This document shows positions 26,343-40,747 of a stretch of 64,000 nucleotides of DNA, in pieces. Where the stretch lies: the NCBI GenBank assembly GCA_945865175.1, contig CAMBDA010000008.1, positions 1-64,000 on the forward strand, given 5' to 3'. A model generated the notes under the pieces. It was given only the letters and a program-made list of their open reading frames with translations. It was not told the origin of the DNA and ran no database searches. Both the position numbers and the translations under genes were made by a program. Numbering within the stretch: the stretch's first letter is position 1; each line of letters begins with the position of its first letter. The stretch is from an uncultured Prevotellaceae bacterium. Lineage in GTDB: Bacteria > Bacteroidota > Bacteroidia > Bacteroidales > Bacteroidaceae.

Positions 26343-26400
26343 GGTTGCCTTCGAGGAGTATCATATAATACTGCCTGATGGCAGTTAACATCATTGCCGA

Positions 26401-26469
26401 TAAGATTAATAACCTTGCGGGGGTAAGATTATTAATCTTGCGGCAGTAAGGTTATTAATCTTGTCGGCG
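26401..26469. repeat. Three imperfect 22-23-bp tandem repeats with internal dyads
   Basis: Units at 26401-26423, 26424-26446 and 26447-26469 follow the pattern TAAG(A/G)TTA(A/T)TAA(C/T)CTTG plus a short GC-rich spacer. Unit 1 is the reverse complement of the core of unit 3, so they can also pair as hairpins. They lie just after the last gene before a 1.8-kb gene-free region. Confidence 0.6.
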
Positions 26470-26757: not shown

Positions 26758-27017
26758 ACGCCCTGAAGGGGCAACCTGATACCAGCCCAGGGCAGAATGG
26801 AGCGAAGCGGAATGGCGCCCTGGGTTAAAAAGCCCGACAAAACAAGTCGCCCTGCAGGGGCAAAAGAACCACCCACACGTTGCCGCGATGACACTTATCC
26901 CCTTACTGGTAGTCCTGCCTTTGCCCCTGTGGGGCGACGGATTGTATGCGCGTCGCGATAACCCAGGGTGCCGCTTTGCTCTGCCCTGGGCTGGTGGCTT
27001 GCTGCCCCTCCAGGGCG
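26758..27017. repeat. REP-like 260-bp near-palindrome
   Basis: Two arms of about 60 bp, 26758-26825 and 26959-27017, are inverted copies with few mismatches. Both contain CAGCCCAGGGCAGA and GCCCTGGGTT-like stretches and an ACGCCCT...GGGGCA box. A second inner inverted pair (TCGCCCTGCAGGGGCAAA with its counterpart near 26921-26938) makes the structure nested. Related GC-rich boxes recur at 40378-40436 and 40510-40530. It looks like a REP/BIME element of the kind moved by RAYT transposases; no transposase is in the window. Confidence 0.6.
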
Positions 27018-27070
27018 TTTTGAACTTATTCCGCCCCTTCATGGCTTAGTGCGTATGCGGACACTGGCCA

Positions 27071-27321
27071 GAGCGTCCACAGTGTCCCGCGTCCACTGGA
27101 ACCGATTTGCACCTGCACACCCCACACACTGCTGCCCTGTTTTGAGGCCTGGAGAGAAAAAAATAGAGAAAAAAAGATTGTTTTTTGAGTTAATAAATAC
27201 TAATATATATCGCGCGCGATGTAGACTTAGAGTTAGTATAAATGAACAGTTGATTGATAGATAGAATATGGGGTTTATGTCCCAATTCGGTTACTGTGGA
27301 CGCGGGACACTGTGGACGCTC
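27071..27321. repeat. 251-bp element with 26-bp perfect inverted ends
   Basis: 27071-27096 and 27296-27321 are perfect reverse complements over 26 bp, and similarity continues inward to about 38 bp. The interior is AT-rich and includes the palindrome ATCGCGCGCGAT (27209-27220). No gene, and no clear -7 box, lies inside. It could be a MITE-like element or an invertible segment. No target-site duplication is evident. Confidence 0.55.
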
Positions 27322-27464
27322 AGGGCATCGGGCGGTGCCGCGTTGCTGCCTAACTGGGAAAAATTTGCTGCCCAACTGGGTAACAAAATTTCTCCAGTTA
27401 GGGAAAAAAGAGACCCCATTTTCTCCCTCTAAAGGCCCTTGACAAGCGGGTGTCCCGCGTCCAC
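27296..27464. repeat. Composite repeat R1: inverted arms around CCAACTGG units
   Basis: A 15-bp arm (GTGGACGCGGGACAC, 27296-27310) and its exact complement (27450-27464) flank three CCTAACTGGG/CCCAACTGGG/CCAGTTAGGG units at 27349-27403, each next to an A- or T-rich run. The left arm is shared with the 251-bp element. The same architecture occurs at 40544-40725. Confidence 0.6.
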
Positions 27465-27552
27465 TGCGATACGCCTGTGAGCGCGCACACACGAGGGGAC
27501 GGCCAGATTGCACGGCAGGTCGGAAACGAGGCGGCGCCAGGTCGGAAACCTC

Positions 27553-27583
27553 TTGCAGGAACGGAAACCTTGTCGTAACTTTG
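27553..27583 (+). promoter_or_regulatory. Orphan promoter before gene debris
   Basis: TTG (27553-27555), a 20-bp spacer and TAACTTTG (27576-27583) form a good Bacteroidetes promoter. Downstream is an ATG at 27645 beginning MASLKNFSLMNILA, which looks like a signal-sequence start but then loses coding character. Confidence 0.5.
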
Positions 27584-27644
27584 CACCGTCGGAATGCCGG
27601 TAAGGATGCAAGTCACCATCGGCAGAAGACACATAAACAGACAA

Positions 27645-28078
27645 ATGGCATCACTAAAAAACTTTTCACTCATGAACATCCTTGCACATCACCGTTTCCA
27701 CACCGCGATACACCACAATGACCTTGTGGAGCACTGTATGGCCAATGTTTCCGCCCACAGGCCTTGCCGTTGTAGGGGTTGGCATCCAATCGGCTCTGCC
27801 GCTTGGCTTGTCCAAGAACTCCGATTCCGAGCACCGCATACGGATGAAGGGCTTCTCCTACGCCGCCGAGTTCTACCATACCGACTACTCCACCCACCGT
27901 CCTTCCCCCGAACAGGCCGACTACCACCGCACACTCTACTGGAACCCCAACCTGAAACTGGATGGCGAGGGGAAGGCACAGATGACGTTCCTACAACAAT
28001 GGCCGCACCACCCGCCTCAGCATCGAGGCCACAGGCCTGTCGCCCGACGGAACCATTCTGTGGAACAATACGGAGTAA
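27645..28078 (+). pseudogene. Decayed gene ending in a frameshifted MG2 3' fragment
   Basis: The first 40 bp may be the start of a lost envelope-protein gene. From about 27829 the sequence matches the C-terminus of the MG2 protein at 17628-20570 (AEFYHTDYSTHRPSPEQADY, RTLYWNPNLKLDGEGKAQ). One extra C near 27990 shifts the frame. After the shift the reading FYNNGRTTRLSIEATG continues to LWNNTE and a TAA at 28076-28078, matching LWNKTE of the intact gene. The rest of 26343-28160 holds only the repeats and the promoter listed separately. Confidence 0.7.
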
Positions 28079-28160: not shown

Positions 28161-29726
28161 ATGGATATGAACAAACTGAAGCGGTTGCCCGTGGGCATAC
28201 AGACATTTGAGAAGGTCATCAATGGGGATTACCTCTATGTGGACAAGACGGAATACATCTGGAACATGGTCCACCTGAGCAACTATATCTTCCTGAGCCG
28301 CCCCCGGCGGTTCGGCAAGTCATTGCTTGTGTCCACGCTCCAGGCCTATTTCGAGGGAAAGAGGGAACTGTTCAAGGGGCTGGCCATGGAACGGCTGGAG
28401 AAGGAATGGGTGGAATATCCTGTGCTGCGTTTCGACATGAGCCTGGGCAAGCACATGGAGAAGGACCAGCTGGAGCGGTATCTGGGAAACCGCCTTGCCG
28501 AATACGAGGGGCGGTATGGCATCACCCATCCGGCAACGGACAACAACGACCGTTTCACTGCATTGATTCAGGCAGCATACCATAAGACGGGCAAGAAGGT
28601 GGTCATCCTCATCGATGAGTATGACGCTCCGCTGCTGGATGTGGTGCACGAGGAAACGGCCCTGCCCATCCTGCGCAATGTGATGCGCAACTTCTACTCC
28701 CCGTTGAAGGCCTCGGACCCCTATCTGCAGTTTGTCTTCCTCACGGGCATCACCAAATTCTCCCAGCTCAGCATCTTCAGCGAGCTGAACAACCTGAAGA
28801 ACATCTCCATGCGCCCCGACTATGCAGGAGTGTGCGGTATCACCGAGGAGGAGATGCTCACCCAGATGACCGACTATATCGATGATTTCGCCCAGGCTCA
28901 GCAGATTACCCGCGAAGAGACCATCACCGGGCTGAAACGGCAGTATGACGGCTATCACTTCACGTGGCCCTCGCCCGATATTTTCAATCCTTTCAGCCTG
29001 CTCAACGCCTTCCAGGACCATGACTACACCAACTACTGGTTCTCGTCGGGCACTCCCACCTATCTCATCGAGATGCTGCGGAAGTTCAACGTTGTACCGT
29101 CGAAAATCGGCGGCGGAAGGGTGCTGGCATCAGCCTTCGATGCGCCAACCGAGAACATGAAGAGCATCACCCCGCTACTCTATCAGAGCGGCTACGTCAC
29201 CATCAAGGACTACAACCGTGCGACAAGACTGTACACCCTCGACATCCCGAACAACGAATTGCGGGTAGGGCTGATGGACAGCCTCTTGCCCAATTATGTG
29301 GCCGAGTATGCCGATGAAGGGGGCACCACGATAGGCTACATGTACGAAGCCCTGCTCAATGAAGACCTCGACAGGATGTTCCGCCTCCTGCAGGCCTATC
29401 TGCTGACAGTCCCCTATTGCGACAACGCCAACTCTGAAGGACATTACCAGCAGCTGCTCTATGTCATCTTCTCGCTCTTCGGCAGATATGTGGACGTGGA
29501 GGTCCACACACCGACAGGCCGTGTGGATATAGTGATGAAGACGGCCAAGGCCCTTTATCTCTTCGAACTGAAGCTCAACATGTCCGCCCAGGCAGCCATG
29601 GACCAGATCGACCTGAAGGACTACGCCTCCAAGTTTTCCCTCTCAGGACTGCCCATAGTGAAGGTGGGCATCAATTTCGATCCCGAGCGCCGCACCATCG
29701 GGGACTGGAGGATAGAGCAAGTCTGA
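28161..29726 (+). CDS. AAA-ATPase-like / PD-(D/E)XK (PDDEXK_9) protein, copy D
   Basis: This complete 521-residue member starts MDMNKLKRLPVGIQTFEKV. Walker A RRFGKSLL, Walker B LIDEYDAP and the GRVDIV...ELKL nuclease-like pattern are intact. Block structure: the 5' end is like B, 28526-28918 is identical to C, the middle (about 29100-29380) is its own, and 29385-29609 is identical to B. The gene is preceded by a broken copy of the MG2 3' end, so gene plus upstream flank appear to have been duplicated together from a copy C-like locus. It stands 205 bp before leuS. Confidence 0.88.
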   Translation: MDMNKLKRLPVGIQTFEKVINGDYLYVDKTEYIWNMVHLSNYIFLSRPRRFGKSLLVSTLQAYFEGKRELFKGLAMERLEKEWVEYPVLRFDMSLGKHMEKDQLERYLGNRLAEYEGRYGITHPATDNNDRFTALIQAAYHKTGKKVVILIDEYDAPLLDVVHEETALPILRNVMRNFYSPLKASDPYLQFVFLTGITKFSQLSIFSELNNLKNISMRPDYAGVCGITEEEMLTQMTDYIDDFAQAQQITREETITGLKRQYDGYHFTWPSPDIFNPFSLLNAFQDHDYTNYWFSSGTPTYLIEMLRKFNVVPSKIGGGRVLASAFDAPTENMKSITPLLYQSGYVTIKDYNRATRLYTLDIPNNELRVGLMDSLLPNYVAEYADEGGTTIGYMYEALLNEDLDRMFRLLQAYLLTVPYCDNANSEGHYQQLLYVIFSLFGRYVDVEVHTPTGRVDIVMKTAKALYLFELKLNMSAQAAMDQIDLKDYASKFSLSGLPIVKVGINFDPERRTIGDWRIEQV

Positions 29727-40377: not shown

Positions 40378-40530
40378 GTAAATGCCCTGGGTATCAACCC
40401 AGTTTTACGAACCATCGCCCTACAGGGCAGGGCGTTCAAAATATTCGTTCCATTCAAGACCATATTGGCAATAAATGTTCTCCTGTATTCTACACTCCGA
40501 TATGAAACTATTCCGCCCCTATGGGGCTGG
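40378..40530. repeat. REP-like GC-rich boxes
   Basis: The hairpins CTGGGT-ATCA-ACCCAG (40387-40402) and GCCC-TACA-GGGC (40417-40428), then GGCGTTCAAAATATTCGTTCC and CCGCCCCTATGGGGC (40513-40527), resemble boxes in 26758-27030 (GCCCTGGGTT, GGGCGTTTTGAACTTATTCC). The two gene-free regions therefore carry related elements. Confidence 0.5.
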
Positions 40531-40543
40531 ATAGCGTACCGCA

Positions 40544-40725
40544 GGGAACGCGGAACACTTCCCTTTATTTTGAGTGTTAAACGTAGCCAACTGGGGAGAT
40601 TTTGCTAGCCAACTGGAGAAAAATTGCTACCCAGTTGGGAAAAAATTGTTGCCCAGTTGGGTAGCAAAAATGGTCTGGTTGGACACCCTTTTACGCCTTT
40701 CTTCTTCTGGGCGTTCCGCGTTCCC
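40544..40725. repeat. Composite repeat R2: inverted arms around CCAACTGG units
   Basis: A 13-bp arm GGGAACGCGGAAC (40544-40556) and its exact complement (40713-40725) flank four CCAACTGG/CCAGTTGG units (40587-40670) in both orientations, each next to an A-rich run (GGGAAAAAATTGTTG-like). It matches R1 at 27296-27464 in arm sequence (nnGGACGCGGGACAC versus GGGAACGCGGAACAC), in unit and in total length (169 versus 182 bp). The rest of the 615-bp gap 40279-40893 holds the REP-like boxes and the operon control region. Confidence 0.6.
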
Positions 40726-40747
40726 CCCGATACGTTATGACCGTTTC

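Follow-up and report, generated by a model that had tools for sequence, protein, structure and literature searches.

The intergenic regions R1 and R2 of an uncultured Prevotellaceae bacterium combine two separate things: a dispersed array of 22-bp boxes and a set of inverted arms of the kind found upstream of genes coding HU-HIG proteins. The arms might belong to a DNA-structure element of HU-HIG promoters that is recognised by its shape, probably by an HU-like protein, a reading that is put forward tentatively and at somewhat less than even probability. Both regions lie in the window, the whole 64,000-nucleotide stretch analysed (contig CAMBDA010000008.1, positions 1 to 64,000, assembly GCA_945865175.1). 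The element is undescribed in the open-licence papers searched.

Organisation of R1 and R2

The common architecture reported for R1 and R2 by the first-pass annotation is real. The R1 arms 27296-27310 and 27450-27464 are complementary at 15/15 positions and the R2 inner arms 40544-40556 and 40713-40725 at 13/13, around three and four CCAACTGG-type boxes, respectively. The R1 and R2 left arms (GTGGACGCGGGACAC and GGGAACGCGGAACAC) differ by three letters, each of them matched on the right arm. In R2 the pairing reaches outward to 40531-40556 and 40713-40738 (22/26). A scan of the window in 141 tiles of 900 bp gave R1, R2 and one unrelated pair (26781-26995) as the only inverted repeats scoring >14. 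The arm pairing of R1 and R2 is not chance. The features are the following:

27062-27675, + strand: R1 full unit with three arms, box array, promoter and leader; identity to L113 5318-5940 is 82.5% across 624 bp
27068-27109, - strand: R1 distal arm, 38/42 complementary to 27283-27324, DNA fold z -9.0
27283-27324, + strand: R1 left arm, contains 27296-27310, partner of the distal arm and, for 15 nt, of the right arm
27350-27401, unstranded: R1 box array with CTAACTGG at 27350, CCAACTGG at 27372 and CCAGTTAG at 27394, 22 bp step
27450-27464, - strand: R1 right arm, 15/15 complementary to 27296-27310
27516-27548, + strand: R1 direct repeats CAGGTCGGAAA, two copies 22 bp apart, in the interval between right arm and promoter
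27553-27583, + strand: R1 putative Bacteroidetes-type promoter TTGC ... TAACTTTG, a motif match kept in intact cassettes L002/L003
40531-40556, + strand: R2 left arm, 22/26 complementary to 40713-40738, inner 13/13
40587-40660, unstranded: R2 box array, four boxes (starts 40587, 40609, 40631 and 40653), 22 bp step
40713-40738, - strand: R2 right arm; DNA fold of 40531-40738 z -5.4

R1 thus has three arms in all, and GTGGACGCGGGACAC occurs three times in R1. The distal arm is a stronger partner of the left arm than the right arm is; the left arm can pair with either of them, never with both simultaneously. Single-strand folding with DNA parameters yields a z of -5.3 for R1, compared to -9.0 for its distal-left arm pair. 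The gene found 3' of R1, at 28161, codes a predicted AAA-ATPase/PD-(D/E)XK protein and an HU gene is absent. R2 consists of arms and array alone, with a 641-aa gene on one side and an HlyD-type gene on the other. An intrinsic terminator (no GC stem with a T run after it) and a known structured RNA (no Rfam match) were rejected as identities of these regions.

Other repeats are found in the vicinity. A second dispersed palindromic repeat with CCCTGGG / AGGGCG words adjoins R1 (26781-26995, 26908-27017), and similar words adjoin R2 at 40385-40440. Palindromic word repeats of the AAGATTAATAACCTT type also adjoin R1 (26395-26468) and are present elsewhere in the genome (L024, L028, L197). The interval between the distal and left arms of R1 (27110-27282) features a CGCGCGCG core within a TACTAAT...TTAGTA palindrome, which is largely retained in other copies and is a possible Z-DNA or hairpin centre.

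R1 as an orphan control region

By sequence, R1 is an orphan copy of an HU-HIG control region. Its homologue L113 5318-5940 begins just past a 196-aa ORF and reaches the start codon of the HU-HIG gene. R1 retains the three arms, the array, the two CAGGTCGGAAA repeats and the TTGC...TAACTTTG promoter motif; the HU gene is missing. The complete arrangement is found in two paralogous 6.7-kb cassettes, one at C1 (L112 559-7255) and one at C17 (L113 552-7237), which are 87.5% identical. Their order is amidase (PF01510), DnaG-like primase (PF01807, PF13155), DUF3987, 196-aa ORF, element and HU-HIG (PF18291), with small ORFs also present in both. The cassette is a possible mobile or satellite-like unit.

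HU-HIG proteins have an HU domain with extra segments (PF18291, E 8e-12). The structural model of the protein, of moderate confidence (pLDDT 72.6), matches HU (1huu, target TM 0.79) and also 4fmr, a putative DNA-binding protein from Bacteroides.

No HU gene lies downstream of R2 or of about ten other copies. Orphan copies besides R1 and R2 include L005, L007, L008, L115-L118, L120 and L121. The fuller ones resemble R1 in that the match begins near the distal arm and ends near the HU start codon, and their flanking genes are unrelated. Orphans may result either from decay of the coding parts or from a mobile control region. The exact arm word GGAACGCGGAAC is almost confined to array sites and is found at three positions in each of C5, C16 and C18; at loci with three arms, all three carry identical letters.

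The box array is a dispersed repeat

Query searches covered the genome (2.99 Mb, 71 contigs), of which 398 kb was also scanned by script. Nucleotide search found ~31 box arrays in addition to those of R1 and R2, which places the array at >30 genome sites. Among the 33 analysed there are three boxes in 29 and four boxes in 4, and the box-to-box spacing is exactly 22 bp in 70/70 intervals, at a mean identity of only 71% between 76-nt arrays. The unit is CCAACTGG flanked by A/T tracts (GCTACCCAACTGGGTAGCAAAATTT). All array copies tested (31/31) are intergenic as judged with a codon-usage gene-calling script, in tandem, convergent and divergent gene settings; the array also occurs alone at ~20 other intergenic places.

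The compensatory change proposed in the first-pass annotation holds for the arms, whose changes are matched on both sides, and fails for the boxes. Nested pairing between boxes across the arrays of this genome is 0.727 observed versus 0.736 permuted, and double changes number 16 versus 15.9; nested, crossing and single-box pairings inside the array were all at permutation level. The fixed two-turn spacing devoid of indels, together with this lack of covariation, is consistent with protein-binding DNA sites and not with an RNA stem. The boxes look like helically phased DNA sites spread as a repeat in this species, and the array is probably a site for a dimeric or multimeric DNA-binding protein.

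A search of 139 species of the genus found the array in this species only, plus two diverged three-box copies (CTAACTGG...CCAGTTAG) in genome G124 (L077, L079). One of the latter is near GGTCAAA-type tandem units, so that array and arms are possibly linked there too. The exact box pattern had no match in the genome contig collection (genome_contigs). At a single site, that of valS, which has one box array, gene order is shared with genome G083, where the intergenic region is of comparable length and no array was recognised.

Arms upstream of HU-HIG genes

Upstream regions of HU-HIG genes were compared in 66 cases from HU-bearing species of the genus and Prevotella sp. tc2-28. The genomes are draft assemblies with several HU loci at contig ends, and promoters are motif matches. 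An inverted repeat scoring >14 is present in 32/66 regions versus 0/528 shuffled sequences; about half of the 66 have no such arms by this test. Thirty clear arm pairs were chosen by score, a few non-arm repeats being excluded by eye. Arms measure 16-40 bp and are separated by 75-176 bp. They are significantly tandem (p<0.05) in 25/30 loci, with a period of 7-9 bp in most and mainly 8 bp, and a central palindrome, usually AT-rich, is better than all shuffles in 22/30. The TAnnTTTG promoter motif is localized mostly between the right arm and the start codon, i.e. downstream of the arms.

This layout recurs with different letters. The three HU-HIG relatives of tc2-28, 59-63% identical, are preceded by arm units GTGCACTG, GTGACGCC and TGGACGTT around AT-rich palindromes, while other armed HU genes of the genome under study carry GTTAACAA (C13) and GTGCTACA (C25). 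The overall background, assessed in 780 kb, is low. In 398 kb of this genome there are two such repeats with a gap of at least 70 bp, and the cassette accounts for one of them. Genome G067 has six in 382 kb, three of them preceding HU-HIG genes, and tandem-unit arms are confined to these three.

Outside the genus, HU_rel genes were sampled from seven genomes and no arms of this kind were found. Since about half of the HU-HIG regions are armless as well, the element is not required by the protein family. One of these HU_rel loci, L274, has a different 49-nt inverted repeat. No HU relatives were confirmed in viral contigs.

Pairing persists while arm letters turn over

The variation of arm letters with preserved pairing, first noticed between R1 and R2, extends far beyond them. 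L173 and L177, from two species, are 98% identical from the right arm to the start codon and 88% in the middle, while their arms are only 81-84% identical, with the changes matched on both sides. At the other HU loci the arms are unrelated in sequence: the 30 loci have 22 arm families and cross-locus arm identity is 0.50 versus 0.49 for shuffled arms. Arms are unrelated even where the HU proteins are 94% (L154/L134) or 91% (L153/L126) identical, which makes it unlikely that the protein reads the letters. The arms were detected through their complementarity and the identity within a locus is thus not independent evidence; the argument rests on how far the arms exceed shuffles and background, and on their shared position.

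A site read by shape predicts free letters, kept pairing and a position at HU-like genes, as observed. According to this explanation, R1 and R2 would be orphans of a DNA element that acts in cis and is normally found just upstream of the HU-HIG promoter. Its working feature would be the capacity to form a long hairpin or cruciform from two inverted arms (three in R1) built of 7-9 bp tandem units, with the central AT-rich palindrome aiding extrusion. Arm letters would be free and pairing constrained. Structure rather than sequence would be recognised, the HU-like protein itself being the most likely reader, and the outcome would be shape-specific autoregulation of the HU-HIG gene. In this species the interval between left and right arms also houses the phased box array. 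Several points count against shape reading: extrusion across an arm gap of 75-176 bp is slow unless the centre opens first, R2 and about ten copies have no adjoining HU gene, and arms are missing by the test used from about half of the HU-HIG upstream regions and from the HU_rel genes sampled outside the genus.

A broader proposition, which is doubtful at present, is that these loci form a class of shape-only cis-elements with locus-specific mirror arms, fast-changing letters and selected pairing, which HU-like proteins would recognise as a four-way junction. If true, each HU-HIG gene has a different sequence for the same structural address. Cruciform-based regulation in bacteria is known from few examples, and ~30 loci where pairing but not sequence is kept would provide a natural test of DNA shape alone as a regulatory signal. 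The set could also separate selection from mutational arm copying and offers a way into the HU-HIG proteins, which are expanded but unexplained in Bacteroidales.

Alternative explanations

The main rival to a shape-read site is mutational copying, in which one arm is rewritten from the other by template switching or through a hairpin, tandem units drift fast and pairing is a by-product. Tandem units and palindromes are typical substrates for slippage and switching. All three arms change together (GGAACGCGGAAC three times in each of C5, C16 and C18, GTGGACGCGGGACAC three times in R1), a concerted behaviour that fits copying well and that pairing of two arms alone would not require. In R2, mirror symmetry with the right-hand flank extends to the outer arm (22/26). 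Copying leaves unexplained, however, why in many species the arms are placed before HU-HIG genes, on the upstream side of the promoter, and why arms are so rare elsewhere, and is considered rather unlikely. The initial statement that R1 and R2 argue against simple copying was too strong: the copying of one arm from the other is a live option, and so is a spread of the box array.

A second alternative is a MITE-like mobile element with inverted ends and an internal minisatellite, moved by an enzyme in trans, as has been proposed for BrickBuilt of P. gingivalis. It accounts for the spread of the box arrays and for the orphans R1 and R2, and agrees with 33 arrays, intergenic in 31/31 cases tested and restricted to 1/139 species of the genus apart from the two diverged G124 copies. 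Arms that differ between copy groups are not ordinary transposase ends, though, and both Y1 transposase genes of the genome carry other repeats. No target duplications were recognised by eye at the copies. This origin appears unlikely.

Of the two possibilities initially envisaged, a structured RNA or a structured DNA, the DNA element is favoured and the RNA disfavoured. A transcribed long stem acting as leader or small RNA would be consistent with the strong single-strand folding of R1 and R2 (z -5.3 and -5.4, computed with DNA parameters). It is very unlikely given that the arms are upstream of the promoter in most loci, the promoter being mostly downstream of the right arm, that there is neither an Rfam match at gathering score nor a terminator-like site, and that the boxes lack covariation.

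Still less probable is an iteron-type replication origin of the cassette. Tandem short units, an AT-rich centre and the primase (CHC2, Toprim) and DUF3987 genes of the same cassette would suit such a function, but no replication gene could be recognised within ~4 kb of the three armed HU genes in tc2-28. That the arms delimit an inverton, a promoter flipped by a recombinase, is hardly credible: the host belongs to Bacteroidales and the 16-40 bp inverted repeats with 75-176 bp gaps are near a promoter, but the latter is outside the arms, the enclosed segment has a single orientation across the related loci compared (consensus genomes) and arm letters varying by locus leave no common recombinase site.

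Comparison with known systems

The favoured shape-read element has its closest counterparts at HU genes. HU prefers distorted DNA and four-way junctions, and at the E. coli hupA promoter there is an overlapping inverted repeat for which a cruciform role has been proposed (PMC3969353; PMC5683647, PMC3176155). The P. gingivalis HU protein PG0121 binds a 77-bp inverted repeat (PMC3969353). The common traits are a promoter-associated inverted repeat that could form a cruciform and an HU protein favouring distorted DNA. An inverted repeat near an HU-family promoter, as in hupA, is found in 32/66 regions and R1 is homologous to two of these, while R2 is not adjacent to an HU gene. Unlike hupA and PG0121, the candidate HU site described here has arms built of 7-9 bp units in tandem whose letters change from locus to locus in nearly all cases, encloses 75-176 bp, and lies upstream of the promoter of HU-HIG genes.

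The BrickBuilt MITE of Porphyromonas gingivalis (PMC4596501) is likewise intergenic and species-limited, with tandem units (23-nt in BrickBuilt) inside flanking segments and some copies reduced to repeats. The boxes differ from it in being palindromic, fixed at 22 bp, only 3-4 in number and of unrelated unit sequence, within arms that vary by copy. Membership in BrickBuilt was rejected, its 23-nt unit AGAYCATARTATCCTCTCRTRTG having 0 matches in the window with up to 3 mismatches.

REP/BIME sequences with RAYT transposases are also dispersed palindromic intergenic repeats. At L081 (C1:182678-182962) and L204, a Y1 (RAYT-like) transposase gene is accompanied by large palindromes of its own, CCGCTGTAGGGTCTTAC, which number three within 20 kb. 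The Y1 transposase genes have these other palindromes nearby and are not flanked by the present repeat, and a REP/RAYT origin was rejected. Invertible promoters of Bacteroidales share the presence of inverted repeats near promoters; here, in contrast, no inversion is seen in the consensus genomes, the promoter is outside the arms and the arms are not common to the loci.
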